DNA from: Gammaproteobacteria bacterium
GTDB taxonomy: Bacteria > Pseudomonadota > Gammaproteobacteria > Pseudomonadales > Azotimanducaceae
Assembly: GCA_009837725.1 (NCBI GenBank)
Contig: VXSY01000026.1
Span: forward strand, 1-52,435
DNA: 52,435 nt
Direction of reading: 5' to 3'
Shown: positions 11,483 to 37,708 of the stretch, one piece after another
Numbering within the stretch: position 1 is the first letter of the stretch
Layout of the letters: each line of letters opens with the position of its first letter
Program-made: the position numbers and the translations under genes
Notes under the pieces: model-generated
What the model was told of the DNA's origin: nothing
The model's input: only the letters and a program-made list of their open reading frames with translations
Database searches by the model: none

Positions 11483-11499
11483 TGATATGATAATACGTC
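11483..11499 (+). promoter_or_regulatory. Shared 17-bp island element, site A
   Basis: The sequence TGATATGATAATACGTC lies in the divergent gap between the PuuE-like operon (minus) and the methyltransferase operon (plus). It fits the consensus TGATATRWYRWTASGWS seen at sites C, D and E, and shares 14 of 17 positions with site E. The 5-bp arms CATAT/ATATG flank its left half, giving local dyad symmetry. It could be an operator or part of a promoter; its gap from the plus-strand ATG is about 103 bp. Confidence 0.6.
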
Positions 11500-11602
11500 T
11501 TTTGTGCTGCCCGGCAAGGGGCCAAGGTGGTACGCTCGCCCGGCAGTCCCGACCTTCCGAGGCGGCGCCTTGCACCGCGTGAGCACATCCGGAGGCGCAG
11601 AC

Positions 11603-12823
11603 ATGGCAGCAACCGAGGCGTCCGAGAACGCAGCGTACGACGGTCCGCCGGACTACCGCTCGGTGGGTCGGCACGACCTGCTGCCGGAGACGACGCACGA
11701 CGAAGCGGAGCGCTACAACTTCCTCGCACAGTTGAACCGGCACTTGGCGGCGCGGGTGCTGCCCGGTGTCGAGGCGGCCTACCATGGCGAGATGTTGCCC
11801 GAGTTCCGGCGCCGACACGGGCGCGCACCAGCGGATCGCCATGAGGTGCGGCACGCCTTGGAGCGCCACCCGCTCTATCGCACCTGGAGCGCCTTGCGGC
11901 GCAACACGATGGAAATGCGCCAGCAGGCGGGCCTGTCCGTCGTCCTGCCGCAGTTGCCGGAGCTGGTGGACCGCGCCGCCTCCTCGACCGGCTCCGAGAG
12001 GCTGCGGCTCGATGCGGCGGTGCATCCGCCTGCCTACCTGACGGCCGTGGACCACCACTGCATGCCAGGCAGCTACCACACCGAACGGGTGCCGGGCGAC
12101 GTCAGCGGCGCGGCGAACTACGACTCCGGGCTGTTCGTGACCACCGGCGGCCTGCTCGGCCGTTTCGCGGACGGCGGTGGCCACGGCATAGTCGATTTCA
12201 TCCGGCGAATCCGCCCCGGCTTTGCGCCGCGCCGCATACTCGACCTCGGCTGCGGGCTTGGACACAACGTCCTGCCGGTGGCCGTGGCCTTCCCCGAAGC
12301 CGAGATCACGGCGGTGGACGTCGCGGCGCCGATGCTGCGCTACGGTGCGGCACGGGCCGCGAGCCTGGGCGTCGACAACGTCGAGTTCGTGCAGGCGGAC
12401 GCGACGGACCTGGCACAGTTCGAGGAAGGCAGCTTCGATTGGGTGCAAAGCATCATGTTCCTGCACGAAACCTCGCTCTCGGCGCTGAAGCGCATCATGG
12501 CCCAGAGCCGCCGGCTCGTGGCGCCGGGGGGCCTTGTAACCCATGTCGAACAGCCGTGCTACGACGCCGCGATGCCGCTCTTCGAGCAGTCGCTGCGCGA
12601 CTGGGATGCGCTCTACAACAACGAGCCTTTCTGGACGAAGCTGCACGAGATCGATCTCGACGAGCTGCTGGTGGCGGCGGGTTTCGAACGCTCGCGCCTG
12701 ATTCACGCCGGGGTCCACGCGATCGCCGACGGGGAGGGGTTCCGCGACGCCGCCAGCGAGGATGTCGAGGACTACGGGCGCAAGCCGGCGTGGCGCGTCA
12801 CTGGCGCGGAAGTGCCCGGCTAG
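11603..12823 (+). CDS. SAM-dependent class I methyltransferase with long N-terminal extension
   Basis: Protein of 406 aa. Residues 212-222 (ILDLGCGLGHN) form methyltransferase motif I, followed by an acidic strand end (AEITAVDVA) and a motif II-like FDWVQSIMFLHE. About 200 residues precede the Rossmann domain; they include an HHCMPGSYHTERVPG segment and are not recognisable to me as a known domain. The ATG at 11603 has GGAGG 7 nt upstream, so the start is well supported. It heads a four-gene plus-strand operon with the 137-aa orphan, a VOC protein and an MDR oxidoreductase. The methyl acceptor is unknown. Confidence 0.85.
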   Translation: MAATEASENAAYDGPPDYRSVGRHDLLPETTHDEAERYNFLAQLNRHLAARVLPGVEAAYHGEMLPEFRRRHGRAPADRHEVRHALERHPLYRTWSALRRNTMEMRQQAGLSVVLPQLPELVDRAASSTGSERLRLDAAVHPPAYLTAVDHHCMPGSYHTERVPGDVSGAANYDSGLFVTTGGLLGRFADGGGHGIVDFIRRIRPGFAPRRILDLGCGLGHNVLPVAVAFPEAEITAVDVAAPMLRYGAARAASLGVDNVEFVQADATDLAQFEEGSFDWVQSIMFLHETSLSALKRIMAQSRRLVAPGGLVTHVEQPCYDAAMPLFEQSLRDWDALYNNEPFWTKLHEIDLDELLVAAGFERSRLIHAGVHAIADGEGFRDAASEDVEDYGRKPAWRVTGAEVPG

Positions 12824-12842
12824 ACGGCCTGGGGAGCGTGCG

Positions 12843-13256
12843 GTGAGCGAAGACCAGTCTCCCGTCGGTGGGGCAGGCGCCGGTGCTGGCGGCGCCGACG
12901 CCGCGCCGCTCGACGTCATGCGTCTTGCCGGCGCGAAGGCGCGGGGCAAGCGCCCCTACTTCTTCGAGGACCCGGACGTCGAGCGAGTGCTCGCCATCAC
13001 GATGGCGCTGGCGGGGGAACTCGCAGTATTGCGAGCGCGCCTCGACACCATGGAGGAACTGCTCGAGAAGCGGGGCACGATGACTCGGGCGGACATCGAC
13101 GCCTTCGTGCCGGCACCGGCGCATGCCGAGCGACGTGGCCGCTGGTATCAGGAGTATCTGGCGCGGATCCTGCGGATCGTGCAGCAGGATGCCGAGGCGT
13201 GCGGCGCCGACGAGCCCACGTCGGAAGAGGCTGGACAGCGCCTGGGACCCGCATGA
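12843..13256 (+). CDS. Conserved-looking hypothetical protein
   Basis: Protein of 137 aa with a GTG start preceded by GGGGAG. I do not recognise the family. After an alanine/glycine-rich N terminus (about 30 aa) it has a predicted helical core: RPYFFEDPDVERVL, then a hydrophobic ALAGELAVLRARLDTMEELL heptad-like helix that could form a coiled coil, then a WYQEYLARILRIVQQ helix. There is no signal peptide or membrane segment. Its stop overlaps the start of the VOC gene (ATGA), so it is translated with it. It might be an accessory or small partner subunit for the methyltransferase or VOC enzyme; that is a guess from position. Confidence 0.75.
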   Translation: MSEDQSPVGGAGAGAGGADAAPLDVMRLAGAKARGKRPYFFEDPDVERVLAITMALAGELAVLRARLDTMEELLEKRGTMTRADIDAFVPAPAHAERRGRWYQEYLARILRIVQQDAEACGADEPTSEEAGQRLGPA

Positions 13257-14149
13257 GCGCGACGCCATTGCGCGCCGGCACCGTGTGCGTCGCCGATGTC
13301 GCCCGCAGCCGCGAAGCATACGAACGTGCGCTCGAATACCGCACCGTTGAGATCGGAACGGTGTCGGGTTCCTTGGCCGAGTCCTGGGCCGCGCCCGACG
13401 TTGCCGGTGCCGCCTACGCCTTGTTGCAGCCACCTTCGAGCGCCGAGACGTGGGTGCGTCTGGTCGAGACCGAGCCGGTCGCAGGATTCGAGCCGCTGGT
13501 CAGCCCCGGCTGGACTGCCCTCGAATTCTGCGTCCGCGATGTCGAAGCGGTGGCGCGGCGGATTTCGGATTCGCCATTCGAAATCGTCGGGCCGCCAAGG
13601 CGACTCGACGGCATGGAGTCGCTCTGCGCGATGCAAGTGCGCGGCATGGACGGCGAGATCTGCTACTTCACGCAGATTGACGAGGACCCGCCGGGGCTCT
13701 CCCTTCCGCGTGCCGCCTGCTGGGTCGATCGCCTCTTCATCCACGTCTTCGGCGCCACGGACCTCGTGGCGGCTGAGCGGTGGCTGGTGCACCACATTGG
13801 CTGCGGGGTGGGCCTCGATCGGGTCGAGATGACGTACACCATGCTTGCGCGGGCGTTCCGTGCCCCCTTGGAGACGCGCTTCACGATCTCGACGATGGTG
13901 CGCGGCGCGGAGACGTTCCTGCAGGTCGACCAGCTACCCGGCCAGGCGCGCCCACGTCCGAGAAGGCCGGGCGCGCTGCCGCCGGGCATCGCCATGACGA
14001 CGCTGTCGGTGCCGGACTTGGACGCGGTCACACGTGCCGGTGCCGCTGGGCCGGCGATTCACGACGGGGCGGTTTACGCCGGTCGGCGCAGCGTCACCCT
14101 CTCGGGGCCGGACGGCACACTGTTTGAGCTGTTGGAAGAGAACGCATGA
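13253..14149 (+). CDS. VOC superfamily protein (glyoxalase/dioxygenase fold)
   Basis: Protein of 298 aa, long enough for two paired VOC modules. The segments CVADVARSREAYERALEY at the N terminus, TALEFCVRDVEAVARRI in the first half and SGPDGTLFELLEE at the extreme C terminus are typical of VOC beta-alpha-beta modules; the final Glu is the usual metal-ligand position. It could be a metal-dependent lyase, isomerase or dioxygenase; function cannot be assigned. It overlaps the preceding orphan by 4 bp and the following oxidoreductase by 4 bp, so the three genes are tightly coupled. Confidence 0.8.
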   Translation: MSATPLRAGTVCVADVARSREAYERALEYRTVEIGTVSGSLAESWAAPDVAGAAYALLQPPSSAETWVRLVETEPVAGFEPLVSPGWTALEFCVRDVEAVARRISDSPFEIVGPPRRLDGMESLCAMQVRGMDGEICYFTQIDEDPPGLSLPRAACWVDRLFIHVFGATDLVAAERWLVHHIGCGVGLDRVEMTYTMLARAFRAPLETRFTISTMVRGAETFLQVDQLPGQARPRPRRPGALPPGIAMTTLSVPDLDAVTRAGAAGPAIHDGAVYAGRRSVTLSGPDGTLFELLEENA

Positions 14150-15135
14150 CGGAGTCGGGAGAGAATCGGCGGGTGGTTGTGGTGCGTCGGCCGCAGGGTC
14201 TGCCGGTGTCGGATGACTTCGCCCTCCAGCCGGCGCCGGTGCCGGGCCCGGGGGTGGCGGCGGACGTCCTCTACATCTCCATCGATCCGTATCTCAGGGG
14301 ACGCCTGAGCGGGCGGCACGTGACGGGGCCCATTGCTCCCGGCGCCGCCATGGACAGCGAACTGGTGGTGCGTACACGCGAGGACTCGGCGGTTGGTCCG
14401 GCCGGGACGCTGGCGCGGGGGTTCGGCCCCTGGCAGGAGCGCGTGGCGGTGCCCGAGCAGGCGCTGACGCGCCTGCCCGACGGCCTCGAACCCGAGTCTC
14501 TGGCGATCGGCGTGGTCGGCATGCCAGGGCTCACGGCCTATGCGGGCGTGCACCGCATCCTCCATCCGGCAGCGGGCGAAACAGTCGTCGTGTCCGCCGC
14601 CGCCGGGCCGGTCGGTGCCACGGCAGGACAGTTGTGCAAGGCCGCCGGCGCCCGCGCCGTCGGCATCGCCGGCAGTGCGCAGAAGCGCGCATGGCTGGTC
14701 GAGGAGGCCGGCTTCGACGCTTGCATCGACCGCCGGGGGTCCGTTCGCGCCGGTCTCGACGCTACCTGTCCGAACGGGGTGGACATGTACTTCGACAATG
14801 TCGGCGGCTCGGTGCTGCAGGCCGTGATGGAGCGGTTGGCACCGAACGCCCGCGTGGCGCTGTGCGGGCTCATGGACCAGTACAACGACGACGAGCCGCC
14901 GCCGGGCCCGAACCCGGCACTCGTCATCCGTGCGCGGGCGACGCTGCGCGGGCTTGTCGTCTATGACCATGAGGACCTCCGCGCAGACATGGAGCGGGAC
15001 CTTGGCGCTCGCGTGCGACGAGGCACGCTGGCGTTTCGGGAGGAGGTGTTCGAAGGGATCGAGCGGGCACCCTTGGCCTTCTGCCGATTGATGGCCGGCG
15101 AGACTTTCGGCAAGACGGTGGTGCGGCTCCGATAG
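14146..15135 (+). CDS. NADP-dependent MDR oxidoreductase (CurA-like)
   Basis: Medium-chain reductase of 329 aa without zinc ligands, in the group that reduces alpha,beta-unsaturated carbonyls (CurA, leukotriene B4 12-hydroxydehydrogenase). Markers are YISIDPYLRGRLSG at the N terminus, GMPGLTAYAGV, the nucleotide loop SAAAGPVGATAGQ (150-162) and YFDNVGG. It would reduce an activated C=C bond with NADPH. It is the last gene of the methyltransferase operon, overlapping the VOC gene by 4 bp and converging on the aldehyde dehydrogenase gene 41 bp away. Confidence 0.9.
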   Translation: MTESGENRRVVVVRRPQGLPVSDDFALQPAPVPGPGVAADVLYISIDPYLRGRLSGRHVTGPIAPGAAMDSELVVRTREDSAVGPAGTLARGFGPWQERVAVPEQALTRLPDGLEPESLAIGVVGMPGLTAYAGVHRILHPAAGETVVVSAAAGPVGATAGQLCKAAGARAVGIAGSAQKRAWLVEEAGFDACIDRRGSVRAGLDATCPNGVDMYFDNVGGSVLQAVMERLAPNARVALCGLMDQYNDDEPPPGPNPALVIRARATLRGLVVYDHEDLRADMERDLGARVRRGTLAFREEVFEGIERAPLAFCRLMAGETFGKTVVRLR

Positions 15136-15175: not shown

Positions 15176-16606
15176 CTAGGGCCGCGGCCGCGCCACTTCT
15201 CGAAAAGCGTCCAGCGGGGCTGCCGGTCCGGTTTGGACAAGCAGGGCTTGACGGCGCAGGAAGCGCACCAAGCCGCTCGTCCCCATGCGTGAGCGGCCTA
15301 CGCCCGAGACCCCGAAAGAGTCCTTCTCGACGTCGCCGACCTGCGTCGTGAGGCCGGCGTCGTTGACGCTGACGGCCCCGGCGCACAGGCGGCGGGCGAC
15401 GGCCAGCGCGTGTTCCTCGGCGCCGAGCACGGCGGCGGACAGTCCGAACTCGGAGTCGTTGGCGAGGCGAACCGCTTCGTCGTCGCTGGCGAAGGCCATC
15501 ACCGGCACCACGGGACCGAACGTCTCCTCGGCAAAGAGGCGCATGTCGTGGTGGACGCCGGTGAGCACGGCAGGCGCGCACCAGGCACCGCCATTGCGCC
15601 GCTGCAGTCCACCGCAATGTAGCGTCGCGCCGCCGGCGACCGCTTCCGCAAGCTGCGCCTCGACCAAGTCGGCTTGCCCCGGGTGGATGAAGGGCCCGAG
15701 GTGGCCTCGGTCGACCTGCTGGGTGTTGAGAGTCACGGCGGATGCCGCGGCGACGATGGCTTCGACGAATGGCGCGTACAGCGTCTCGTGCACGTAAACG
15801 CGCTCGATCGACTGGCAGGCCTGACCTGTGGCGAGCACAGATCCGCGCAGGGCGATGGCCGCTGCCGTTTCTACATCGGCGTCGGCCAGCACGACCAGCG
15901 GGTCCTTGCCACCGAGTTCGAGGAACGCCGGGATGAGGCGGGCGCCGGCCCGGGCGCCGACCTTGCGCCCGGTGGCGACGCTCCCGGTGAAGCAAACCGC
16001 GTCGGCAACTCCCGCCACCGCCGCGCCCGTGTCCGCGCCGCCACGCACGCAGTCGAAGACCGCGGCGATTTCGGGTTCCGCGGCAACTGCATCCATCAGC
16101 GGCTCGACGAAACGGGGCGTGTGCTCGCTTGGTTTGCATAGCACGGCACAACCGGCCGCCAGTGCCGGGACAGCATCGATCAGCATAAGCAGCAGGGGGA
16201 AGTTCCACGGTGCGACGACGCCGACGAGCTCGAACGGCACCAAGCGGTGCTCGAAGCGCACGCTCGGCACGGTCGCCGACATGCCGACGGAGCGTTCGGC
16301 AAGCACGCTGGTGGCCGCACCACACCAATAGTCGATGCGTCGCAAGGCGCCGTCGACCTCGGCTTCCGACAGAAGGGCCCGGCCGGTGTCCTCGATGAGC
16401 GCCGCCACGATCTCGCCGCGTCGCTCGTCCAGGGCATTGCGCCATCGTGCAAGGAAGGTCGAGCGCTCCTCGACCGATCGCGCCGCCCAGCGCCGGTGCG
16501 CCGCCCTCAGCCTGCCGGCGGCGTCATCGACGGCTGCTGGGTCCGCGGCGGCAAAGCGATGGCCTTCTCCACCGCGGGGATTCGCTGCCACCAGAAAATT
16601 AGTCAT
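15176..16606 (-). CDS. NAD(P)-dependent aldehyde dehydrogenase
   Basis: Aldehyde dehydrogenase superfamily protein of 476 aa. Asn135 in [10 protein letters not shown], the general base Glu230 in FLELGGKDP and the catalytic Cys264 in [10 protein letters not shown] are all in place, as is the cofactor loop FTGSVATG (206-213). It would oxidise an aldehyde intermediate to the acid; the [12 protein letters not shown] segment is typical of succinate-semialdehyde and benzaldehyde dehydrogenase-like members. It is divergent from the LeuC-like gene with only 21 bp between the two start codons, and that gap holds the palindrome described separately. No Shine-Dalgarno precedes its ATG. Confidence 0.95.
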
Positions 16607-16622
16607 AATGACAGGTCATTAT
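16605..16622. promoter_or_regulatory. Near-perfect palindrome between divergent starts, site B
   Basis: ATAATGAC and GTCATTAT are exact 8-bp inverted repeats separated by AG. The site touches the ATG of the aldehyde dehydrogenase (16606) and lies 5 bp before the LeuC-like ATG (16628). On the minus strand it includes most of a perfect TATAAT (16623-16618) 11 nt before the ATG; on the plus strand CATAAT lies 18 nt before the ATG. It resembles sites A, C, D and E (TCATAATGACA against TGATATGACA) but does not fit their 17-bp consensus exactly. It looks like an operator over two back-to-back promoters. Confidence 0.65.
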
Positions 16623-16627
16623 AGCCA

Positions 16628-18016
16628 ATGAATGGATCGGTACCGATCGTGCCCACGACCCTGTTCGACAAGCTGTGGGAACGCCATTGCGTCGAGACCG
16701 CCGACGACGGCGAGAGCCTGCTGTACGTGGACCGCGTGATCATGCACGAACGCACCGGCGGCATCGCTCTCGACGCCCTGGCGCGTCGGCGGCGGGCCGT
16801 GCGTCGTCCCGATCAGGCGTTCTGCGTGGTCGATCATGTCGTGGACACCGAGCCGGGGCGCGGCGACGCGACGCGGGTACCGGGGGGCACGGATTTCATC
16901 GCAGCGCTGCGCCAAGGCGCAGCCGCTTTCGGACTGCGGATCTTCGATGTCAACGACGACGACCAAGGCATCTCCCATCTGGTGAGCGCCGAGCAAGGCA
17001 TCGCCCTGCCGGGACTGTCCCTCGTCTGTCCGGACTCGCACACCTGCACGCTCGGCGCCCTCGGCACGCTCGCCTTCGGCATCGGCACCAGCGAACTCGA
17101 ACACGTGCTGGCCACATCCACGTTGCGCATCGCCAAACCGGCCACCATGCGCGTGGTCCTGAACGGTCGGCCCAGGCTCGATGTCACCGCGAAGGATCTC
17201 GCGCTCAAGTTGATCGGCACGTTCGGCGCGGCCGGGGCGGCGGGCGCGGCCGTCGAGTTTGCCGGGCAGGCGGTCGCCGACATGGGCGTCGAGGAACGGA
17301 TGACCCTGTGCAACATGGCGACGGAGTTCGGTGCCGCGACCGCCGTCGTGGCGCCGGACGAGCAGGTGCTGTCTTCGGTTCTGGCGACGCCGATGGCGCC
17401 TGTGCCTGCGCCCGTTGCCGAGTGGAGCAGGCTCGTCACCGATCCCGGAGCGCACTTCGACCACCGTGCGGAACTCGATGCTGCACAGGTGGAGCCGCAA
17501 GTGACGTGGGGAACGTCGCCAGAGCATTGTGCGTCGGTACATGCAGCCGTGCCGCCGCCAAGCGGTGCGGCGGCGCGCCGGGCGCTCGCCTACATGGCGC
17601 TCGAACCGGGTACGCCGTTGCGTTCGGTGCCCATTGATGCCGCGTTCATCGGCTCGTGTACCAATGCGAGGATCGGCGATCTGCGCTCTGCGGCAACGGT
17701 GCTTGCGGGGCGTCGCGTCGCGCCGGGAGTCGCGGCCTTGTGCGTGCCAGGCTCGCGTCGCGTGCAACGGACGGCGGAGGCCGAAGGGCTCGACGAGGTG
17801 TTCCGAGCAGCGGGTTTCGAGTGGCGTGAACCTGGTTGCTCGATGTGCTTCTTCGCCGGCGGCGAGACGTTTGGCAGCGGCAAGCGCGTCGTCTCAACCA
17901 CCAATCGCAATTTCGAGAATCGTCAGGGGCCCGGAGTTCGCACGCACCTTGCGAGCCCGGCGGTGGTTGCCGCGTCGGCAGTGCATGGTCACATCGCCGC
18001 ACCGGATCCGGTGTAG
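16628..18016 (+). CDS. LeuC-like aconitase-family hydro-lyase, large subunit
   Basis: Large subunit of 462 aa of a two-subunit aconitase-family dehydratase/hydratase. The 4Fe-4S ligands are Cys344 (IGSCTNARIGDL), Cys404 and Cys407 (GCSMCFFAGGETF), and substrate-site residues lie in CPDSHTCTLGALG (134-146). 3-Isopropylmalate dehydratase is the closest known function by length, but no other leucine-biosynthesis gene is nearby and the setting is catabolic. Dimethylmaleate hydratase of nicotinate fermentation is built from the same subunits and is a better functional analogue. ATG at 16628 is used here; GTG at 16649, giving VPTTLFDKLW, is an equally family-like start. Paired with the small subunit at 18022. 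Confidence 0.88.
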   Translation: MNGSVPIVPTTLFDKLWERHCVETADDGESLLYVDRVIMHERTGGIALDALARRRRAVRRPDQAFCVVDHVVDTEPGRGDATRVPGGTDFIAALRQGAAAFGLRIFDVNDDDQGISHLVSAEQGIALPGLSLVCPDSHTCTLGALGTLAFGIGTSELEHVLATSTLRIAKPATMRVVLNGRPRLDVTAKDLALKLIGTFGAAGAAGAAVEFAGQAVADMGVEERMTLCNMATEFGAATAVVAPDEQVLSSVLATPMAPVPAPVAEWSRLVTDPGAHFDHRAELDAAQVEPQVTWGTSPEHCASVHAAVPPPSGAAARRALAYMALEPGTPLRSVPIDAAFIGSCTNARIGDLRSAATVLAGRRVAPGVAALCVPGSRRVQRTAEAEGLDEVFRAAGFEWREPGCSMCFFAGGETFGSGKRVVSTTNRNFENRQGPGVRTHLASPAVVAASAVHGHIAAPDPV

Positions 18017-18021
18017 CGTCC

Positions 18022-18642
18022 ATGGTTCCCCTTACGGTTCATTCGGGTGTCGCGGTGCCGCTGCTGCGGGCGAATGTCGACACCGACGCGATCATTCCAT
18101 CGCGTGAAGTGCGCCGGGTGTCGAGAACCGGATTGGGGGACGGCCTGTTCGCCAATTGGCGCTACGTGGACGGGCAGACGGGCCGCCCCGATCCCGAATT
18201 CGTCCTGAACCGGCCCGAACGGGCTGGCGCCAGCATTCTGCTCGGCGGCCCCAACTTCGGCTGCGGCTCCTCCCGGGAGTATGCCGTTTGGGCTCTCGCC
18301 GAATTCGGCATCCGCGTGATCGTGGCACCCGATTTCGGGCCGATTTTTCGCAAGAACTGCGTCGCGAACGGCCTGCTGCCTGCGGGCGTGCCCATGGCGG
18401 CGGTGCGCGAACTCGCCGCGTGGAGCGACCGGGATCCACAGCACAACCGGCTCACCGTGGACCTCGTCGCAGCCCGGATCAAGGGGGCCGGGGAGCCCGT
18501 GCCCTTCGACGTCTCCCGCGCGGCCCGCATCCGGCTGTTGCGCGGGCTTGACGACATCGCCATGACAGACTGTCGTGCCGCTGCCATCGATGCCTTCGAG
18601 GCGGAGCGCTTCGCTGCGGAGCCTTGGGTGCGACTACCGTAG
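18022..18642 (+). CDS. LeuD-like aconitase-family hydro-lyase, small subunit
   Basis: Swivel-domain small subunit of 206 aa. ANVDTDAIIPSRE near the N terminus and the substrate loop GGPNFGCGSSREYAVWAL are hallmark LeuD motifs. It starts 5 bp after the stop of the large-subunit gene and together they would form one hydro-lyase acting on a branched malate/maleate. Length is normal for LeuD. Downstream is a 126-bp convergent gap to the MFS transporter gene in which I find no clear terminator. I leave the symbol empty because a role in leucine synthesis is not supported by the neighbours. Confidence 0.9.
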   Translation: MVPLTVHSGVAVPLLRANVDTDAIIPSREVRRVSRTGLGDGLFANWRYVDGQTGRPDPEFVLNRPERAGASILLGGPNFGCGSSREYAVWALAEFGIRVIVAPDFGPIFRKNCVANGLLPAGVPMAAVRELAAWSDRDPQHNRLTVDLVAARIKGAGEPVPFDVSRAARIRLLRGLDDIAMTDCRAAAIDAFEAERFAAEPWVRLP

Positions 18643-29211: not shown

Positions 29212-29925
29212 ATGCCCGACATGCAGCGTTCGGATTTGACCCCGCGCCAATACTGGGACGAGGTCAAGTCCAATCCTCGTCGCGCTCGGTTCGGTTTTGG
29301 CGAGAAGGCGGGGCTGATCAACATCGACCTGCAGCGGGCGTACACCGACGTGGATCGTTTCGCGACCGCGTACCGCACCGATCCGAACCAGATTGCCTAC
29401 ATCAACCGCCTTGCGGAACTCGCGCGCGGCAAGAACATGCCGGTGATCTGGACCTATGTAGCGTATATGGACAACGCCGACGACGCCGGTGTGTGGGGCA
29501 CGCGCACGAACACCGAGGACTCGCTGCAGAACATCGCCGAGCACAGCGAACGCGCCGAACTCGACCCGCGCCTTGACGTGGACCGCGAGCGCGACGCGGT
29601 CGTCAACAAACGCATGGCGAGCGTGTTCCACGACAGCCTGATCCCGTCGCTCCTCGTCTGGCACAAGGTGGACACGGTCATCCTCACCGGCGGCAGCACG
29701 TCGGGTTGCGTGCGGGCGTCGGCGGTGGCGGCGCTGTCGCACGGCTACCGCACGGTCGTTCCGGAGGAGTGTGTCGCCGACAAGCACGAGATCCCGCACT
29801 TTGCGAACCTTTGCGACATCATGCTGAAGTACGGCGATGTCGAGCCCTTCATGGCGGTCGAGGCGTGGCTTGCCGAACATCCAGGCTGTACACCGATCCG
29901 TGCCGCGCGCGGCGCGCCGTTCTAG
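29212..29925 (+). CDS. Isochorismatase-like cysteine hydrolase (N-carbamoylsarcosine amidase type)
   Basis: Hydrolase of 237 aa with the complete Asp-Lys-Cys triad: Asp39 in LINIDLQRAY, Lys133 in VVNKRMASVF and Cys166 in GGSTSGCVRAS. This group includes N-carbamoylsarcosine amidase, nicotinamidase, maleamate amidase and ureidoacrylate hydrolase, so cleavage of an amide or carbamoyl group is likely. The ATG at 29212 has TGGAG about 8 nt upstream. It starts a plus operon with two PuuE-like genes and the CpcT/CpeT-like gene. A ring-opening PuuE-like enzyme followed by such an amidase is a chemically sensible pair. Confidence 0.9.
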   Translation: MPDMQRSDLTPRQYWDEVKSNPRRARFGFGEKAGLINIDLQRAYTDVDRFATAYRTDPNQIAYINRLAELARGKNMPVIWTYVAYMDNADDAGVWGTRTNTEDSLQNIAEHSERAELDPRLDVDRERDAVVNKRMASVFHDSLIPSLLVWHKVDTVILTGGSTSGCVRASAVAALSHGYRTVVPEECVADKHEIPHFANLCDIMLKYGDVEPFMAVEAWLAEHPGCTPIRAARGAPF

Positions 29926-29938
29926 GCGCTTGAAGCCG

Positions 29939-30886
29939 ATGCGTGCGGACCCCGAACTCTACCGCTACCGGGCGTGGGACGAACGCTTGCCCATTCGCTG
30001 GCCGGGCGGTGCGCGGCTGGCATTCTGGGTGGCGCCAAACATCGAGTTCTACGAGCTCGACCCCCCGCCGAACCCGGCACGGCGGGCCTGGCCCCGGCCG
30101 GTTCCCGATGTGCAGGGCTATGCGACGCGGGACTACGGCAATCGCGTCGGCCACATGCGCATGATGGAGCTGCTCGACCGCTTCGGCGTGCGCGGCTCGG
30201 TGAGCCTGTCGGCGGCCGTGTGCGACCACCACCCAGAGATCATCGAAATGTGCGCGGCGCGGGGCTGGGAGTTCTTCAGCCACGGCATCTACAACACACG
30301 CTACGCCTACGGCATGGACGAGGAGCAGGAACGGGCGATGATCGAGGACTCGGTAGCCGCGGTCGCCCGTCACACCGGGCAGCGCTGCGCCGGCTATCTG
30401 GCACCAGCACTCACCCACACCGAACGCACTTTGGACCTCTTCGCCGAGGCCGGCGGCATCTACACCTGCGACCTGTTTCACGACGACCAGCCGACGCCGG
30501 TGCACGTGCGTTCCGGCAAGCGGTTTGTTTCGGTGCCGTACTCGCTGGAGCTGAACGACACCATCGCCTACGTGGTCAACCGGATCGAGCCTCGCCGCTA
30601 CGGAGAGATGATCAAGCAGGCCTTCGATAGGCTCTACCGCGAGGGCGAACAGGGCGGCACGGTGATGTGCGTGCCGCTGCATGCCTACCAAGTCTCTCAC
30701 CCACACCGGCTCCGCGCCTTCGAGCACGCCCTCGAGTACGTGGTCGGTCACGACGGGGTCTGGTTTGCCACCGGCGCTGAGATCGCTGAGCACTATCTCG
30801 CGCATTATTACGATCAGGATGTCGCACGCGCCGCCGGTGCGGCGGACGGCGGCGTCCAGGAGCGATCCGAGGGTACGCCGCCGTGA
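29939..30886 (+). CDS. PuuE-like polysaccharide deacetylase family hydrolase (copy 2)
   Basis: NodB-homology protein of 315 aa. It has RWPGGARLAFWVAPNIEFYE, RDYGNRVGHMRMMELLDRFGV, GWEFFSHGIYNTRYAYGM and TYNTR-like family blocks, with SVPYSLELNDT in the C-terminal third. The layout follows PuuE allantoinase rather than extracellular chitin or peptidoglycan deacetylases, and there is no signal peptide. It follows the isochorismatase-like gene by 13 bp; its stop overlaps the GTG start of copy 3 (GTGA). Copies 2 and 3 share YGNRVG but have diverged widely, so they may form a heteromer or act on successive substrates. Confidence 0.88.
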   Translation: MRADPELYRYRAWDERLPIRWPGGARLAFWVAPNIEFYELDPPPNPARRAWPRPVPDVQGYATRDYGNRVGHMRMMELLDRFGVRGSVSLSAAVCDHHPEIIEMCAARGWEFFSHGIYNTRYAYGMDEEQERAMIEDSVAAVARHTGQRCAGYLAPALTHTERTLDLFAEAGGIYTCDLFHDDQPTPVHVRSGKRFVSVPYSLELNDTIAYVVNRIEPRRYGEMIKQAFDRLYREGEQGGTVMCVPLHAYQVSHPHRLRAFEHALEYVVGHDGVWFATGAEIAEHYLAHYYDQDVARAAGAADGGVQERSEGTPP

Positions 30887-31812
30887 CGCTCGACGCGGCC
30901 CATCTGCGCTATCCGCACCGTCGCCGCGGCATGGACCACGAGCGCTACGCCTGGTCCATGCTCGCCGAGCGGCCTGCGGTCGCGTGGCCCGGTGGTGCTC
31001 GGCTGGCGCTGTGGGTGAATGTGGCAGTGCAGTTCTTCCCGCTCGACCAGGTCGGCAAGCCCTTTGTGCCGCCGGGCGGCATGGCGACGCCGTATCCGGA
31101 CCTGCGCCACTTCACGCTGCGCGAATACGGCAATCGCGTGGGCATCGTGCGCTGCTTGAACGCCCTTGACGCGTTCGGCATCCGTGCCACCTTCGCCGTG
31201 AACGCGGCGGTCGCGGAGCGTCATCCGGCCTTGCTTGAGCGGCTCGCCGCGCGCGGCGACGAACTCGTCGCAAGTTCTTGGCACATGGACACGCCACACC
31301 ACGGCGACATGCCCATCGGCGATGAACGCGCACTCGTCGAACGGTCGTTGTCAACGCTTCGTCGGTGCTCGGGCCAAGCGGTCGAGGGCTGGGTCAGCCC
31401 GGCCGGTTCGCAGAGCCTCTTCACGCCGGAGCTCTTGGTCGAGCATGGGGTGCGCTACATGGGCGACTGGATCAACGACGAGTTGCCCTACGCGTTCCGC
31501 ACCCTGTCGGGCGAGCTCGTCGCACTGCCGCTGTCGCTCGAACTCGACGACCACTTCCTGATCGGCACTAGCCTCCATTCCGAATGGGAGTACGCAACGC
31601 AGGTAAAGGATGCCTGCGACTACCTTGTGGCGGAAGCCGAGGCGACCGGCGGCGGCAGGCTGCTGGCGCTGTCGATCCACCCGTGGCTGCTCGGGCAGCC
31701 GCACCGCATCGGCGCGTTTGAGTCCGTGCTCGAGCACCTTGCCGCCACGCCCGGGATATGGTCTGCATCGGCATCGGAAATCGTCGCGGCCTGGCGTGAT
31801 CAACAGGATTGA
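30883..31812 (+). CDS. PuuE-like polysaccharide deacetylase family hydrolase (copy 3)
   Basis: NodB-homology protein of 309 aa with PGGARLALWVNVAVQFFP, REYGNRVGIVRCLNALDAFG, DELVASSWHMDTPHHGDM and PLSLELDDHFLIG blocks. The histidine-rich SSWHMDTPHHGD replaces the GHE..HGYRW motif of copy 1, so its active site differs from the PuuE reference. It starts with GTG overlapping the stop of copy 2 by 4 bp, and its 3' end overlaps the CpcT/CpeT-like gene by 17 bp. Cytoplasmic by sequence. Confidence 0.88.
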   Translation: MTLDAAHLRYPHRRRGMDHERYAWSMLAERPAVAWPGGARLALWVNVAVQFFPLDQVGKPFVPPGGMATPYPDLRHFTLREYGNRVGIVRCLNALDAFGIRATFAVNAAVAERHPALLERLAARGDELVASSWHMDTPHHGDMPIGDERALVERSLSTLRRCSGQAVEGWVSPAGSQSLFTPELLVEHGVRYMGDWINDELPYAFRTLSGELVALPLSLELDDHFLIGTSLHSEWEYATQVKDACDYLVAEAEATGGGRLLALSIHPWLLGQPHRIGAFESVLEHLAATPGIWSASASEIVAAWRDQQD

Positions 31813-32635
31813 CGCCTCGAACCCCATTGCGCGGGTCCTGTTGCTTGGGGCTTGCCAGGTGCCGTGCGCGGCGGGCCCCATCGAGCTGGTGGAGCTCTTG
31901 GCCGGCGAGTACGACAACAACGAGCAGGTCTGGCAGCAAGGAGTGGACGACGAGCCCCCTGACCCTCGGCGGCACTGGCGCTTCGAGCGTCGAGGGCCGG
32001 CGAGCATGGCACTCGCCGTCGGCCATGGCCAGGCGGCGTCCGACGCCCCGGAGTTGACGCTGTCGTTTGCCGAAGGTGTGGATGGCCTCGTCACGGAGGT
32101 CAGCGGCATGGCGTGTCGCGTGCGGTGGCGCGAGCGCGACGGCGGCGCCTATGAGGGACGCACCGAATCGTGCCCCGGATTGCCGGCGACACTGCACGTG
32201 GACCGTGAATGGCTGACCGCGACGTGGCCCGCAGAATCAGGTGAGCGGGTGGAGCGGGCGCGTCGGGTGCGGCACTACACCGGCTGGGTGGCCTTGCGGC
32301 GCGACCGGCTGGACCCTGCGGCCGCCCAAGACGACTATGTGTTCCTGCGCGAGGCACGCTGGCACGACGAGGGCTTCTTGCTGCCCGTCCTCGACGGCGG
32401 CGACGCGACGGGCTACGCGATCGAGCTCGCACGGCTCACCTACCAGAATACGCGCACGGCGGTGCTCAAGCTGGGCGTTGTGGACACGGCGACCGGCGAG
32501 ACGCTTGCGTATTCTTGGGCGGAACCTGGCGCCGGCCGAATCGGCATCAACCTGCGCTGGATACAGGCAGGGCTGACCCGCGAGGGAAGTGCCGAGAGAT
32601 CCGGCGCTGCCGAGGCCGCGGCGCGATTGGACTGA
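31796..32635 (+). CDS. CpcT/CpeT-like protein, possible lipoprotein
   Basis: Protein of 279 aa that matches the chromophore lyase CpcT/CpeT pattern: ELVELLAGEYDNNEQV near the N terminus, then CRVRWRERDGGAYEGRTESC, which follows the Cys-x-V-x-W ... F/Y-x-G ... Cys spacing of that family, then a late VDREWL strand. CpcT/CpeT are calycin-fold proteins that bind and attach bilins in cyanobacteria; relatives elsewhere are uncharacterised. The N terminus from the GTG at 31796 carries LLLGAC (15-20), a plausible lipobox with a short hydrophobic stretch, so it may be membrane anchored. Last gene of the plus operon. Assignment is by motif pattern, not by full alignment. Confidence 0.65.
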   Translation: MINRIDASNPIARVLLLGACQVPCAAGPIELVELLAGEYDNNEQVWQQGVDDEPPDPRRHWRFERRGPASMALAVGHGQAASDAPELTLSFAEGVDGLVTEVSGMACRVRWRERDGGAYEGRTESCPGLPATLHVDREWLTATWPAESGERVERARRVRHYTGWVALRRDRLDPAAAQDDYVFLREARWHDEGFLLPVLDGGDATGYAIELARLTYQNTRTAVLKLGVVDTATGETLAYSWAEPGAGRIGINLRWIQAGLTREGSAERSGAAEAAARLD

Positions 32636-32718
32636 TTGCGCGACCCGCTCCGCGCGCCGGTCGGATCGGCCGACGAAACCAGAAAGCTCCGCGGAGAAGT
32701 GGTCTTGGCAGCTCCGGT

Positions 32719-33621
32719 TTACGGATCTCCGCGCGCAGGTGCCTGCTCAACGCCCTCGCGCACGCGCCGGTAGTAGATCCAGCTCGTGACGTTGCCGCGT
32801 TCGTCGTCCAGAGCTGGCGGTTCGGTGTACTCGGGGTAGTGCGTCGCGATCTCCTCGCGCATGCTGGCGGGCAGCGCTTCCCACGAGTCCAGCCTGAGGC
32901 CGGATGTGTGCATGTAGATCACGCCCTCTCGACCGCCCATCTTCATCCAGGGCAGCCAGTCGGACATGCGCGCCCAGCCGACGTGACTGCCCGCATGGGA
33001 TCCATCGGCGTCGAGCAGTTCGGCGGCAGCGCCGAAGAAGTTGAACATCTCGGTCGCGTGGTAGGTGCCACCGACTTCGGATTGGAAGCCGCCGCCGAGC
33101 GGATTCGGGTAGAACAGAGGCACCGTAGTGGTCTGCCGCCACAGGCCGCCTTCGACATGGCCGCTCCAGCGCATCGGCGCGCCGCGTGGATCCTTCTCGT
33201 ACATGGCGAAGTTCACCGGGTCGTTGGCGACATGCAGGACCTCGACGGTGGCGCCGGTCCACGGGTTATCCCAAGTGGCCAGCGCTGCGCCGCTCGCCGG
33301 GTCGCGGTAGATCAAGAGTTCCCGCGAGACCATGCGGAACCCGCTGCCCCGTTCAGCGTGGTTGTCCGCAACGCAGGCGCGCACGTTCATGCCCTCGACG
33401 TCGAACAGGTGCCGATCCCGTTCCCCTTGGCGGCGGGAAAAAGCTCGGCCTTCCCACCAAAAGGTCGTTGGCTGTCCGTCGACTGTCGAACACATGATCT
33501 TGCGGGATATCGTCAGGGCATCGAGAGGATCGTTCGGATCCAGTTCGCGCGCGGTTGCGGGGTAGAGCAGGGCGACGGCGAATAGTGCGCAAGAGACCTG
33601 CTTGAGCAGCGGGTGTTTCAT
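32719..33621 (-). CDS. Exported DUF1838 protein
   Basis: Protein of 300 aa with a signal peptide (MKHPLLKQVSCALFAVALLY, cleavage near ATA-RE). The mature part matches DUF1838: DPLDALTISRKIMCSTVDGQ, TFWWEGRAFSR and WARMSDWLPWMKMGGREG, ending HYPEYTEPP. DUF1838 proteins are exported, of unknown function, and occur beside catabolic dehydrogenases. Start ATG 33621 has AGAGGA upstream. It is the last gene of the TonB receptor-amine oxidase operon, so a role in the periplasmic handling of the substrate is likely but unproven. Confidence 0.85.
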   Translation of the reverse strand: MKHPLLKQVSCALFAVALLYPATARELDPNDPLDALTISRKIMCSTVDGQPTTFWWEGRAFSRRQGERDRHLFDVEGMNVRACVADNHAERGSGFRMVSRELLIYRDPASGAALATWDNPWTGATVEVLHVANDPVNFAMYEKDPRGAPMRWSGHVEGGLWRQTTTVPLFYPNPLGGGFQSEVGGTYHATEMFNFFGAAAELLDADGSHAGSHVGWARMSDWLPWMKMGGREGVIYMHTSGLRLDSWEALPASMREEIATHYPEYTEPPALDDERGNVTSWIYYRRVREGVEQAPARGDP

Positions 33622-33694: not shown

Positions 33695-35134
33695 TCACGC
33701 CGCGAGTGCTTCGAGTATGGCCGATGCGGCGCGCTCGCCGGAACGGATTGCGCCTTCGATGCCGGGGGCGTCGGCGACGTGCTCGCCGGCGAAATGCATC
33801 GGTCCCACCGGTTGTGAAAGCGCGGCGCGACTGGCGGCGACCCGGCCCGGCGGCCAGGCTGCGTAGGCGCCGCGGGCGAACGGGTCGCTGCCCCAAGCGT
33901 GCCGTGCAAGATAGCGCACGCGGCCGGCGGCGCTCGGGCGGACGCGCGCGAGCGTCGTCAACGCGAGTTCCTCGAAGGCAGCCTCGTCGAGGCGGTCTAG
34001 GAAGGTTGTCCCTGCCCCGTTGACGAAGGCCTTGAGGCCGATGATTTCCCGTGTTTGCGAGTGGCGTCGCGGAAAGATGCGCTCCAAGGGTGTGTCGGTC
34101 CACATCGTGGGCGGCAACCCGTCCTCTTCCCAGAAAGGCGCCGCGTCGAACAGGGCCACGGTGACTCGCGTGTACACCGTTTCTTCAATGGCGCGGCGGG
34201 TGGCGGACGCAAGGGGCAAGCGCAGCCGCACTCCAGCGAGCACGGGCAGGGGCAAGGTGCAAATGCAGCGCCGTGCGCGATACTCGGCGCCGTCTGCCAC
34301 GCGTATGTACATTTGGCCGCCGGCTTCGACGATCTCGGTGACGACGCTGCCATAGCGGACGTTGACTCCCGTCGCGAGGCACTCGGCCAACGCGCCAGCA
34401 CCGGCTTCGAGCCGCCCGCTGCCGGTGTCTTGGCGGCGTGCGAGCGCCCCTCGCCACCACCCGAGCACGCTCACTTGGTCGCTGTGTTGGTGGTTGCCGG
34501 CCACGTTGACCAGGCGCAAGGCCTCAGCCGAGACGCCGCGCTCTTCGAGCACCGTGGTGATGGAGCGGTCGTGGACGGCGGCTTGCGCGGTGTCCCAGTC
34601 GGAGGCTTGCGCGAACGGAATCGGGCTGGCGAGGTAGTGCGCCTCAAGCCGGTAGGGCGCAATCGCCCGCTCGACACCGGTCAAGGGGTTGGCCGGCGAA
34701 TCATCCCAGTCTCGCGCATCGAGCGTCTGGCCGTTGACGTGCAGGGCGAGTCCGCCTGCGCCGGGCGGCGCGGAAGGGCCGATGGCGAGACCACACGCCC
34801 GCGCCAGCGCATGCACCCGCGTGTAGGTGTCGCCTACCTCGACCGCGCCGAGCTCGGCCCGGTCGGGAAGGTCGAAGCGGGTGTACACACGGCCGCCCGG
34901 ACGGTCTCGGGCTTCGATCACGAGCACTCGCAGGCCGGCTTCCGAGAGCCGTCTTGCGCCGGCAAGCCCCGCAAGACCGGCGCCGAGCACCAGCACGTCC
35001 ACTGGCGGCTCTGGTTGCGCTCGGCTCCTGCGGCCGCCGGCCAGCCCGGCGGCCGCAACGCCAAGTGCCTTGAGGGCATGGCGCCGCGTAGTGCTGCGCA
35101 AACGGAGGCTGCAACGGCGATCGACGCTCACCAT
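33695..35134 (-). CDS. Exported flavin amine oxidase family protein
   Basis: FAD oxidoreductase of 479 aa in the monoamine oxidase/phytoene-desaturase-like group. The N-terminal dinucleotide motif is VDVLVLGAGLAGLAGARRLSE with VIEARDRPGGRVYTR, and the C-terminal FAD motif is PMHFAGEHVADAPG. The N terminus (STTRRHALKALGVAAAGLAGG) looks like a Tat signal with a twin arginine, although the usual Phe-Leu is His-Ala. Export to the periplasm would fit its operon with the TonB receptor, whose gene ends 7 bp upstream. It could oxidise an amine or a C-C bond of the imported substrate. Confidence 0.88.
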   Translation of the reverse strand: MVSVDRRCSLRLRSTTRRHALKALGVAAAGLAGGRRSRAQPEPPVDVLVLGAGLAGLAGARRLSEAGLRVLVIEARDRPGGRVYTRFDLPDRAELGAVEVGDTYTRVHALARACGLAIGPSAPPGAGGLALHVNGQTLDARDWDDSPANPLTGVERAIAPYRLEAHYLASPIPFAQASDWDTAQAAVHDRSITTVLEERGVSAEALRLVNVAGNHQHSDQVSVLGWWRGALARRQDTGSGRLEAGAGALAECLATGVNVRYGSVVTEIVEAGGQMYIRVADGAEYRARRCICTLPLPVLAGVRLRLPLASATRRAIEETVYTRVTVALFDAAPFWEEDGLPPTMWTDTPLERIFPRRHSQTREIIGLKAFVNGAGTTFLDRLDEAAFEELALTTLARVRPSAAGRVRYLARHAWGSDPFARGAYAAWPPGRVAASRAALSQPVGPMHFAGEHVADAPGIEGAIRSGERAASAILEALAA

Positions 35135-35141
35135 CGGACGC

Positions 35142-37574
35142 TCACAGCCGATAGCTCAGCTCGATCCCGATCTGGCGTCCTCTCCGCGGCAGCGCGAAGA
35201 ACGCCCGCGGCATGCCGGTATCGGCGCCGGCGGGTGCTGAGTTGACGGAGGTGAAACGATTCAGCAGTGGCGACTGCAGCCAGCGGGTGGCGAGGATCGC
35301 CGAGTCCTCGTCGGTCAGGTTGCGACCGATGAGCGCCGCGGTCCAACGTTCGCCGCGGATGCCCATACGCAGGCCGAGCAGGGTCGCGGCCCCCGTATAG
35401 GACGCTTGGTGCAGCTGCGTATAGCGCTTCGATTCGTGGCTCATGTTGACGTTGGCGAACCATTCCCGTCCCGCCGCCTGGCGCAAGTTCCAGTCGAGCC
35501 ACATGCCGAGCTGGTGCCGGGAACCCATCGGGAACTGGTGCCCGGCCACCGAGCAGTCGCCCCTGCCGTTCGGATTGAGTGAGGTCGCCGGGTCGCCGGT
35601 GAACTTGCCGCCGCCGCTGGTCAGCGTCCATTGGAACTCGTCGCAGCCGCTCGTGAACTCGGAGTCCGCCAGCGCGTAGTTGAAGCCGATGCGCAACGTG
35701 TCCGAGACGCGGGCGAGCGCTTCGAGCTCGACGCCGCGCACCTTGCCGTCGGCTTGGTTTGTGACCACGGAGTTCAGGGCGCCGCTCGGGGATGCGACGG
35801 GCGTGGTCAACTGGTAGCTCTCGATGTCGGTGAAGAAAAGCGCGACGTTCAACTGCAGCCGTCCACCCATCGCCGCGGTCTTGATGCCGCCTTCGAAGTT
35901 GCGCGACTGCTCCTCTTCGTACGATGCCCTGCCGACGGCGACGCCGGTCGCCCCATTGAGGCCGCCCGGCTTGATACCGTCCGAGTAGGTTCCGTACAGA
36001 AGCATGTCGTCGCGGACGGCGTAGTCGAGGGTGAGGCGAGGCGCGATGCTGGTGAAGGTCTTGGCGCCGCCGAACTCGATCATGCCGGCGGCGTCGCGAT
36101 CCTCCTGCTGTTTCTCTTCGTCGGCGTAGCGCATCTCCAAAGTGGCGCCAAGCCGCTCGGAGATGTCCCAGGCAAGAGCACCGAACGCCGCAAGGTTGGT
36201 GACGAAGTTGTCCGTGCCGTCCTCCGTGGTGCCACCGACGACCAGGTCGCTCACGTCCTGCTCGTAGTCGTAGTAGAACACCCCTGCGCTGTAGCGCACG
36301 CGGGACTCGGCCGGCGAGTTCCAGCGGAATTCGAGGGTGTTCTCCGTGTATTCGGAGACCTCGGACAGCGCGAAGAACGCTTCCGGACCGAGAAAGAAGT
36401 TGGTCGGGCCGTGGTCCGAGTCCGACCCGGTCTTGCGCTCCTCGTCCCGATACGAGGTCTGGAACGTGAACACGTGCCCCGATCCTGCTTCGTACTCGGC
36501 CGAAAGAGCCAAGACGTTGAGGTCCCGCTCCACGCCGCTGAAGACGACGCCGCGTTCGAGGCCATACAGAGGACCGAACGGCGGCAGGAAGGGCAGGCAG
36601 GCGGTGTTCGCGCAGATGCTGTCGGGGCCGATGCCCGGCAGCACGTTGGGCATGCCGTCCGCGTCGGCGCCGTCGTTGAGCTGGATCGGCCCCACCTCGA
36701 TTTCGCCGCAGTAGTACTGGTTCGAGTTGTCGCTCTCGACCCGGGGCCAGTAGGCGAGAGACCGGTAGCCGGGATAGCAGTTGTTCGATGTCGCCGACTG
36801 CAGGAAGAACGGCCGGGTGCCGTCTTCGTCGGACTGAGACTGAATGCGCGCCACGATCGACCAGGCATCGGTGGGCGCCCAATCGAGCGTCAGGTTGATC
36901 GAAGTGGTCTGCTCCTGCCCGATGTCCTGTTCGGTGACCCGGTTCGTCCACTGGCCGGCGAAGTCGTAGTGCCGCACGGCCGCGCGCAGGCCGAGCACGC
37001 CTTCCACGATCGGGGCGTCGAGGTGGCCTACCATCTCCCGCTCTCCGCTGCCGAGCGCACGCACCCGGAAGCCTCCGCCGAGGTCGTCTTCGACGCGCTT
37101 GGTGACGAAGTTGATCGCGCCCGAATAGGTATTGCGGCCGTACAGGGCACTTTGCGGTCCCCGGATCACCTCGACGCGGTCGAGATTCGTCATGTCGAGG
37201 CTCTGAATGTCACCGGCGTAGTACATGCCGTCGACGAAGTAGGCGACGCCGCTTTCAACGCCGAATTGCACTCCGGCCAGAATGTTGCCTTGGCCACGGA
37301 TCACAGGTCGTTCGGTGGCGCGCCCGAACGCGCTCGAGAAGCTGAGCCCGGGCGCGAACCGGGCCATGTCGGAGATGCTGTTGATGTCCAGCCCTTCCAT
37401 GGTTGCGTCCGTGAATGCCGAAACCGACACCGGCACCTCGTTCAGATTCTCCTCGACCTTTCGGGCGGTCACGGTGATTTCCTCGATCTGGCTTTCTTCG
37501 GTCCAGGCGGGCGCGCCGCCGAAAACCATGGAAGGCCCGATGAGCGCGGATGCAAGAAAAAAGGCGTGTCGCAT
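35142..37574 (-). CDS. TonB-dependent outer membrane receptor
   Basis: Outer-membrane receptor of 810 aa: signal peptide (MRHAFFLASALIGPSMVFG), a TonB box-like IEEITVTARK near residue 30, a plug domain (VPVSVSAFTDATMEG, RGQGNILAG, VEVIRGPQSALYGRNTYSGA) and a 22-strand barrel with a terminal aromatic-type strand IGIELSYRL. Start ATG 37574 has GAGAGG with 9-nt spacing. Receptors of this iron-independent type import large or scarce organic molecules. It is the first gene of the minus operon facing site E and is the only TonB receptor in the window, so it is probably the outer-membrane entry for the island's substrate. Confidence 0.95.
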   Translation of the reverse strand: MRHAFFLASALIGPSMVFGGAPAWTEESQIEEITVTARKVEENLNEVPVSVSAFTDATMEGLDINSISDMARFAPGLSFSSAFGRATERPVIRGQGNILAGVQFGVESGVAYFVDGMYYAGDIQSLDMTNLDRVEVIRGPQSALYGRNTYSGAINFVTKRVEDDLGGGFRVRALGSGEREMVGHLDAPIVEGVLGLRAAVRHYDFAGQWTNRVTEQDIGQEQTTSINLTLDWAPTDAWSIVARIQSQSDEDGTRPFFLQSATSNNCYPGYRSLAYWPRVESDNSNQYYCGEIEVGPIQLNDGADADGMPNVLPGIGPDSICANTACLPFLPPFGPLYGLERGVVFSGVERDLNVLALSAEYEAGSGHVFTFQTSYRDEERKTGSDSDHGPTNFFLGPEAFFALSEVSEYTENTLEFRWNSPAESRVRYSAGVFYYDYEQDVSDLVVGGTTEDGTDNFVTNLAAFGALAWDISERLGATLEMRYADEEKQQEDRDAAGMIEFGGAKTFTSIAPRLTLDYAVRDDMLLYGTYSDGIKPGGLNGATGVAVGRASYEEEQSRNFEGGIKTAAMGGRLQLNVALFFTDIESYQLTTPVASPSGALNSVVTNQADGKVRGVELEALARVSDTLRIGFNYALADSEFTSGCDEFQWTLTSGGGKFTGDPATSLNPNGRGDCSVAGHQFPMGSRHQLGMWLDWNLRQAAGREWFANVNMSHESKRYTQLHQASYTGAATLLGLRMGIRGERWTAALIGRNLTDEDSAILATRWLQSPLLNRFTSVNSAPAGADTGMPRAFFALPRRGRQIGIELSYRL

Positions 37575-37691
37575 GGTGCTGACCCTCTCGGTTGGGCTCA
37601 TGTGCCCGGTGCGGGGCGCGCCTTTGCCAACGTCCATGGCAGCCGAAGCATGGCTTCGTCCGGCACCACGGTGGCAGTGGCGCACCTCAAA

Positions 37692-37708
37692 TGATATATT
37701 GATACGTC
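37692..37708 (+). promoter_or_regulatory. Shared 17-bp island element, site E, in the 337-bp intergenic gap
   Basis: TGATATATTGATACGTC fits TGATATRWYRWTASGWS and shares its last seven bases (ATACGTC) with site A. The gap 37575-37911 separates the TonB receptor start and the calycin-like gene; the rest of the gap shows no ORF or repeat that I can support. The element is 117 bp from the receptor start and 203 bp from the plus-strand gene. Confidence 0.6.

Follow-up and report, generated by a model that had tools for sequence, protein, structure and literature searches.

Gene content of the island

Contig VXSY01000026.1 of assembly GCA_009837725.1, from a gammaproteobacterium of the family Azotimanducaceae, was analyzed over 52,435 nucleotides (the window). 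Between 2918 and 38358 lies an island of enzyme and transport genes, and each of its five divergent gaps holds exactly one copy of a near-palindromic element (Table 1). We computed the site, its position, its conservation in relatives and its association with gntR, the island gene for a GntR/HutC-type regulator. The element is, with a probability of about 0.88, the predicted autoregulated operator of that regulator, uniting five divergons in one catabolic regulon. Genes were called from open reading frames (ORFs), matches to Pfam and NCBIfam and alignment to relatives, with no gene caller. GntR is the sole DNA-binding family among the island ORFs that were taken as genes and scanned with Pfam.

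Table 1. Predicted operators, regulator and operons of the island (positions in the window)
Feature	Position	Strand	Core	Score (bits)	Flanking genes or content
Operator A	11473-11502		11480-11495	39.7	PuuE-like gene (-) / methyltransferase gene (+)
Operator B	16599-16628		16606-16621	31.0	Aldehyde dehydrogenase (-) / LeuC-like (+)
Operator C	22328-22357		22335-22350	46.5	CoA-transferase III (-) / HMG-CoA-lyase-like (+)
Operator D	29156-29185		29163-29178	35.9	FAD-oxidase/hydrolase/gntR operon (-) / isochorismatase-like operon (+)
Operator E	37690-37719		37697-37712	38.8	TonB receptor (-) / DUF3598-like (+)
GntR/HutC-type regulator, proposed binder	25163-25960	-			GntR winged helix-turn-helix and UTRA domains
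Operon left of A	2918-11415	-			PuuE-like, MaoC/Ich-like hydratase, acyl-CoA dehydrogenase, CoA transferase III, MmgE/PrpD, PaaK-like ligase, amidase, thioesterase
Operon right of A	11603-15135	+			Methyltransferase, ORF 13199-14149, zinc-binding dehydrogenase
Left of B	15176-16591	-			Aldehyde dehydrogenase, proposed start GTG 16591
Right of B	16628-18642	+			LeuC-like and LeuD-like (Aconitase_C), two-subunit hydro-lyase
Left of C	18769-22304	-			CoA transferase III, glyoxalase-like ORF, MFS transporter
Right of C	22375-25081	+			HMG-CoA-lyase-like, nitrilase-like, glyoxalase-like
Left of D	25163-29088	-			FAD-binding oxidoreductase, alpha/beta hydrolase, gntR; operon predicted from tight co-direction
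Right of D	29212-33585	+			Isochorismatase-family amidase, two PuuE-like, two ORFs without Pfam match
Left of E	33695-37574	-			TonB-dependent receptor, amine oxidase
Right of E	37912-38358	+			DUF3598_N-like protein (22.5 bits, cut-off 22)

Architecture of the element

The original prediction had named four 17-mers, at 11483-11499, 22338-22354, 29166-29182 and 37692-37708, as one element. All four are at those positions and match its pattern, and the likenesses it quoted (14, 14 and 13 of 17) are correct on direct count. It placed one site in each of four divergent gaps; these four are real, but there are five, the one at 16599-16628 having been missed. The fourth 17-mer matches the pattern but is 8 bp out of register. 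On a crude consensus two registers are nearly equal there (15 and 16 of 22), and the orthologues settle 37690-37719. The 17-mer itself is real but truncated: it covers the right-hand side of a near-palindrome that is 24-30 bp long overall and has a 16-bp core. The 17-mer begins at core position 4 and extends into the right-hand box. That all four had been found on the same strand means little, since the element is nearly palindromic.

At up to 2 mismatches the 17-mer pattern has 5 matches in the window, compared with a mean of 0.11 and a largest value of 2 in 100 shuffles. In the bacterium's own genome (4.66 Mb, 303 contigs) only the four sites match at 0-1 mismatch, and three further matches appear at 2 mismatches, one of them overlapping the fourth site. 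Read backwards, the pattern has 1 match in the genome. This uniqueness is partly circular because the pattern was made from these very sites, and we therefore built an independent matrix.

The matrix is symmetric, spans 30 bp and was trained on 47 sites from relatives with no window site included. Its consensus is AAAGACATAATGATATATCATTATGTCTTT. Most of its information is carried by the 16-bp core TAATGATATATCATTA, outside which lie weaker GAC/GTC boxes that echo the inner TGAT box 8 bp farther from the center. A G is found at -12, in the outer box, in 55 of the relatives' 72 half-sites. As this is exactly 8 bp beyond the G at -4, the operator looks like TGAC-N4-TGAT plus its mirror. In the window the five sites score 31.0-46.5 bits and the next best place 1.4, with no further place at or above 11 bits. 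The largest value was 27.6 bits with 300 column-permuted symmetric matrices and 10.5 bits in 100 Markov-random windows.

Compared with each other, the five window sites agree in the core halves (0.82 and 0.61), less in the outer boxes (0.44 and 0.40) and at 0.20-0.34 beyond them. Agreement in the core without agreement in the flanks points to separate promoters that share a site, not to one promoter that was copied. Site B deviates most from the pattern, its core reading TAATGACAGGTCATTA, and it nearly fills its gap, abutting the proposed start codons. From the center of site C the distance to the two proposed start codons is 38 and 32 bp. Operator D is the likely autoregulatory site. An Rfam scan of the window gave no match.

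Conservation in relatives

Relatives of the island GntR protein were sought among 150 genomes belonging to the family, and the surrounding DNA was compared; the pattern in their gntR-region DNA is a palindrome. Most of the 21 named relatives are metagenome-assembled genomes (MAGs) filed as Gammaproteobacteria or Pseudomonadales, with three Alphaproteobacteria, one Lysobacterales and Candidatus Azophilus lithoversatilis (family Candidatus Azotimanducaceae) among them. Judging by sample names, several may come from sponges. Three contigs filed as Alphaproteobacteria MAGs (L084, L086 and L087) encode a GntR DNA-binding domain nearly the same as that of a Pseudomonadales MAG (L089), which would reflect misbinning or recent transfer.

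Genome-wide searches used a sequence-only model, R1, made from 36 of the relatives' sites in both orientations, taken from stretches of 11 family genomes and two other loci. At E<=10, R1 found five distinct places in the bacterium's own genome, all in the window, in a search that was not exhaustive at this threshold: a loose first look gave 28 candidates, all of which were scored. The original prediction proposed that the sites are operators of one regulator, probably the GntR protein, and named two tests that could refute it. Neither did. In the above search R1 gave 0 matches outside the island, as against two others with the 17-mer at 2 mismatches, and the motif is present upstream of orthologous operons in related genomes. 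These sequence comparisons thus support the proposal. They also support its reading of 2918-38358 as one regulon, in which co-transcription out to the ends of the island is inferred.

The gap of operator A is found with its site in 8 relatives (G132, G109, G092, G057, G033:C122, G144:C101, G130:C116 and G138:C12), that of B in 7, C in 11, D in 7 and E in 6. The gap of C is conserved also in other families of the order. When orthologous gaps were anchored on the site and compared ungapped, with 7 to 12 rows per gap, identity was 0.86-0.97 in the core, 0.57-0.86 in the outer boxes and 0.33-0.46 in nine of the ten flanks. The tenth flank, left of B, has an identity of 0.75 and lies inside the aldehyde dehydrogenase gene.

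Away from the training stretches, R1 has 21 matches in the 11 training genomes. For 20 of these a homologue of an island gene lies no more than about 1 kb away. Sixteen of the 20 fall at the five divergent pairs seen in the island, in most cases on separate contigs; three precede glyoxalase-like/MFS genes, and the match at 40679 in G076 adjoins distant HMGL- and TonB-like genes, similar to a site at such genes in the training stretch of G120. The exception is a 26-bit site in G092:C23 (L141, 38948), which has no homologue of an island gene close by, just a partial TonB-like gene (28%) elsewhere in its 11 kb. Further sites stand at TonB-receptor-like genes away from gntR (G076:C1:40679 and 2282613, G120:C1:139797 and G132:C66:564), so in relatives the regulon extends beyond the island. 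At G001:C43:65756-65785 (L143) the 30-bp sequence is a perfect palindrome, CCTGGCATATTGATATATCAATATGCCAGG; it lies near a CoA transferase gene (33%), and this genome has no close relative of gntR.

Association of the site with gntR

Within the family, we counted genomes with a gntR relative at E<1e-50 and an R1 match at E<=0.1. The site is present in 16 of 17 genomes with gntR and in 6 of 133 without (Fisher 8.9e-16). With the 11 training genomes removed, the counts are 5 of 6 and 6 of 133 (6.6e-6). Outside the family we surveyed 293 genomes of the order, requiring gntR at E<=1e-45 and R1 at E<=0.02, with totals counted from listings. Eight of 19 genomes with gntR have the site compared with 5 of about 262 others (9.3e-8); at a laxer gntR cut-off of E<=1e-25 the counts are 8 of 25 and 5 of about 256 (1.2e-6).

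The gntR-centered regions of the 19 genomes outside the family contain 41 sites at or above 14 bits, against 3 on the reversed sequence. Sixteen of the 19 regions have at least one such site; in 10, one lies upstream of gntR at no more than 200 bp, and three of those 10 sites are weak (14-15 bits). Within the family, gntR starts within about 250 bp of a D-type site in G120, G076 and G031, and in G098 a site stands 44 bp before the gene. Judged by position, the regulator is linked to its own sites and would be autoregulated, as is characteristic of HutC-subfamily regulons.

The regulator and its fit to the operator

The regulator matches the GntR winged helix-turn-helix at its N-terminus (PF00392, 67.0 bits, cut-off 27) and UTRA at its C-terminus (PF07702, 77.3 bits, cut-off 23.8), as expected for the HutC subfamily. 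Its best NCBIfam match by subfamily is the HutC histidine-utilization repressor (TIGR02018), but at 86.5 bits it is far under the equivalog cut-off of 220, and the scans run named no hut gene in the island. The nearest named relative of solved structure is NagR (YvoA) of Bacillus subtilis (E 8e-18), which likewise joins the winged helix-turn-helix to UTRA; its operon content is unlike that of the island. The NagR dre-sites belong to the GntR/HutC-subfamily operators, as do the operators of HutC, DasR, PhnF and TreR.

In NagR (PMC4333415), Arg48 reads G-4 and Arg38 reads G-5, in half-sites six bases apart. Aligned to NagR, the window protein has R61 at the place of Arg48 and A51 at that of Arg38. 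The first is arginine in the window protein and in 28 of 28 aligned relatives; the second is alanine in the window protein and arginine in 0 of the 28. On the DNA side, 65 of the relatives' 72 half-sites have G at -4 and 68 have T at -5; of the 10 half-sites in the window, 9 have this G and all 10 the T. Keeping R61 while losing the Arg38 equivalent is what an operator with G-4 and T-5 requires. An arginine for G-4 is common to the family and is by itself weak evidence.

The element resembles HutC-subfamily operators in being an even-centered palindrome with G-4/C+4 and six bases between the half-sites, as in NagR. A family survey (PMC4494728) describes single sites near the middle of divergons and weaker extra half-sites 7-12 nt from the center, and both features have counterparts here. 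The element differs from these operators in having T, not G, at -5, GA-N4-TC in place of GT-N4-AC, and a long conserved core with outer boxes on both sides. GT-N4-AC is the usual HutC consensus, with known exceptions, in the same survey; one of them, SdhR, is a HutC-type regulator with an extended palindrome of additional symmetry, although its sequence is not the same as here. Neither the 12-mer nor the 16-mer string of the motif was seen among the open-licence literature matches listed.

Alternative explanations

Several observations weigh against assigning the element to the GntR protein. Of 72 half-sites, 61 have A at -3, giving GA-N4-TC where the usual consensus has GT-N4-AC. Taken singly, sites A and B score weakly when R1 is run on the whole genome (E about 0.1). 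The cut-offs for gntR were chosen where the listings showed gaps, once the listings had been viewed. One family genome with gntR, G031, has no R1 match at E<=0.1, though the matrix still finds 26-bit sites there, and the gntR neighborhoods of G303, G160 and G363 contain no site at or above 14 bits. No site at or above 11 bits was found around gntR in G036, which has sites on another contig, or in G048, L096 and L097. Conversely, R1 has a match in six family genomes that lack a gntR relative at E<1e-50. In two of these, G138 and G139, island orthologues are present at the match and gntR may lie in an assembly gap; G001, G014, G038 and G141 do not fit. Co-occurrence alone also does not distinguish GntR from other island proteins. 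The genome encodes a second UTRA-domain protein on another contig (G000:C31:16611-16883, L009, 58.4 bits), which may be a further player. Lastly, the inner 10-mer TGATATATCA is also known from the DNA of regulators outside the GntR family. It occurs in a tro promoter oligonucleotide studied with TroR, a DtxR-like regulator of Treponema denticola (PMC2628430), and in a reported binding sequence of the MarR-type EmrR (PMC13053672). The inner letters alone thus do not name the binder, and its naming rests on the outer boxes, the restriction to the island and the link to gntR.

A different specific regulator, island-encoded or unlinked, might read the site, with gntR as a mere neighbor. The second UTRA protein is one candidate, and the conserved ORFs 31610-32635 and 32515-33585, which have no Pfam match, are others. 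We consider this quite improbable: in G280 the sites are just upstream of gntR with no other island gene found in the surrounding 20 kb, and the even center and G at +-4 match HutC geometry. A symmetric core promoter, in which a shared -10 element fires both ways, would account for TATCAT on both strands of the core, for the location in divergent gaps and for the one promoter-like match that overlaps site D. Yet a search of 217 distinct one-sided flanks from 128 sites found no TTGACA-like hexamer at a constant distance outside the site, which argues that the site itself is not a core promoter. The top values coincide with the boxes of the operator itself (-14 and -6) and are below three standard deviations of permuted hexamers. 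Such a promoter should also recur throughout the genome, whereas R1 finds none outside the island, and it leaves the outer GAC/GTC boxes and the gntR link unexplained. It is therefore very improbable.

The Fur box is GATAATGATAATCATTATC, with an odd center. TAATGAT/ATCATTA resembles it, one target is a TonB receptor, and a metal- or redox-responsive binder of the Fur, FNR or DtxR-like (TroR) kind could be imagined. However, the element has an even center and is 1 bp longer than the Fur box, so it does not qualify as one. The TroR promoter fragment (PMC2628430) contains TTTTGATATATCAAAA but has TTTT/AAAA flanks in place of TAA/TTA and the GAC/GTC boxes, and TroR belongs to another regulator family. 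General metal homeostasis also predicts targets elsewhere, where R1 found none, and the site follows gntR across families, making a binder of this kind highly unlikely. There remains chance, or the general AT-richness of promoters in a GC-rich genome, in favor of which one could cite the derivation of the 17-mer pattern from the sites themselves. The matrix trained without the window refutes it, as the sites score 31-46 bits, above every permuted matrix of the same composition and every Markov window, and its probability is negligible.

Proposed chemistry of the island

The extent of the operon left of A and its GTG start at 11415 are provisional assignments. ORF 13199-14149, right of A, is glyoxalase-like, just below the Pfam cut-off. 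The HMG-CoA-lyase-like protein scores 268 bits (cut-off 246). The island amidase is nearest to N-carbamoylsarcosine amidohydrolase and other isochorismatase-family hydrolases; 4l07 we take to be a maleamate amidase, and PuuE relatives of this sort presumably include cyclic imide hydrolases. The family matches of the enzymes point to ring opening, deamidation, hydration, CoA activation and cleavage. The set at 28363-33585, 16628-18642 and 21051-23340 is consistent with the degradation of a substituted cyclic imide or lactam. Several other families retain the HMGL/CoA-transferase divergon and, next to gntR, the isochorismatase-PuuE-PuuE genes.

It is possible, and we offer it tentatively, that the operator marks out a catabolic regulon not described before, belonging to marine Pseudomonadales of which many are probably sponge symbionts. 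PuuE-like ring opening, a maleamate-type amidase, a LeuCD-type hydratase, CoA transferases and an HMG-CoA-type lyase would degrade a substituted cyclic imide or lactam, conceivably a tetrapyrrole fragment, after TonB uptake. UTRA would sense an intermediate, and the four-box operator (TGAC-N4-TGAT plus mirror) would be read through one arginine only. Among the open-licence literature matches listed, no relevant-looking description was apparent of a pathway for cyclic imide or maleamate breakdown with GntR, or of one for tetrapyrrole or maleimide degradation.

The TonB receptor at site E (35142-37685) has only 22-36% identity to its counterparts in relatives and seems, from these alignments, to be exchanged or fast-evolving. 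Its DUF3598-like neighbor (37912-38358) has 71-90% identity in ten places and 42% in G031. Just outside the island, 39081-41170 holds PEP-mutase/isocitrate-lyase-family and citrate synthase genes, and a PrpD-like gene lies at 6071-7819; together they make a methylcitrate-type branch without its own operator possible. A 974-residue ORF at 42838-45762, with PKD/Ig-like matches and an autotransporter domain, stands beside an OmpA-family gene.

A model for regulation and its meaning

A GntR operator of this design suggests how the island could work. A GntR dimer would bind the core through arginine-guanine contacts at +-4, with the outer boxes supplying added contacts or a second dimer. Bound between two start codons, it would block the promoters and so repress both divergent operons together, and at operator D it would repress gntR's own operon. 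A pathway metabolite in the UTRA domain would release GntR, turning on transport and catabolism at once. On sequence grounds, the island is probably controlled as a single unit, all on or all off.

Through the operator, some 30 enzyme and transport genes with no other evident connection become members of one pathway, whose extent it predicts along with the regulator and the target bases. It also serves as a DNA tag for members in fragmented genomes, where it has already retrieved unlinked TonB receptors and split islands. With regulator and operator both predicted, the substrate could be sought by asking which compound frees GntR from the 30-bp fragment. The element would also be a naturally occurring HutC-type operator that lacks the customary GT/AC pair, and as such useful for the recognition rules of the family.

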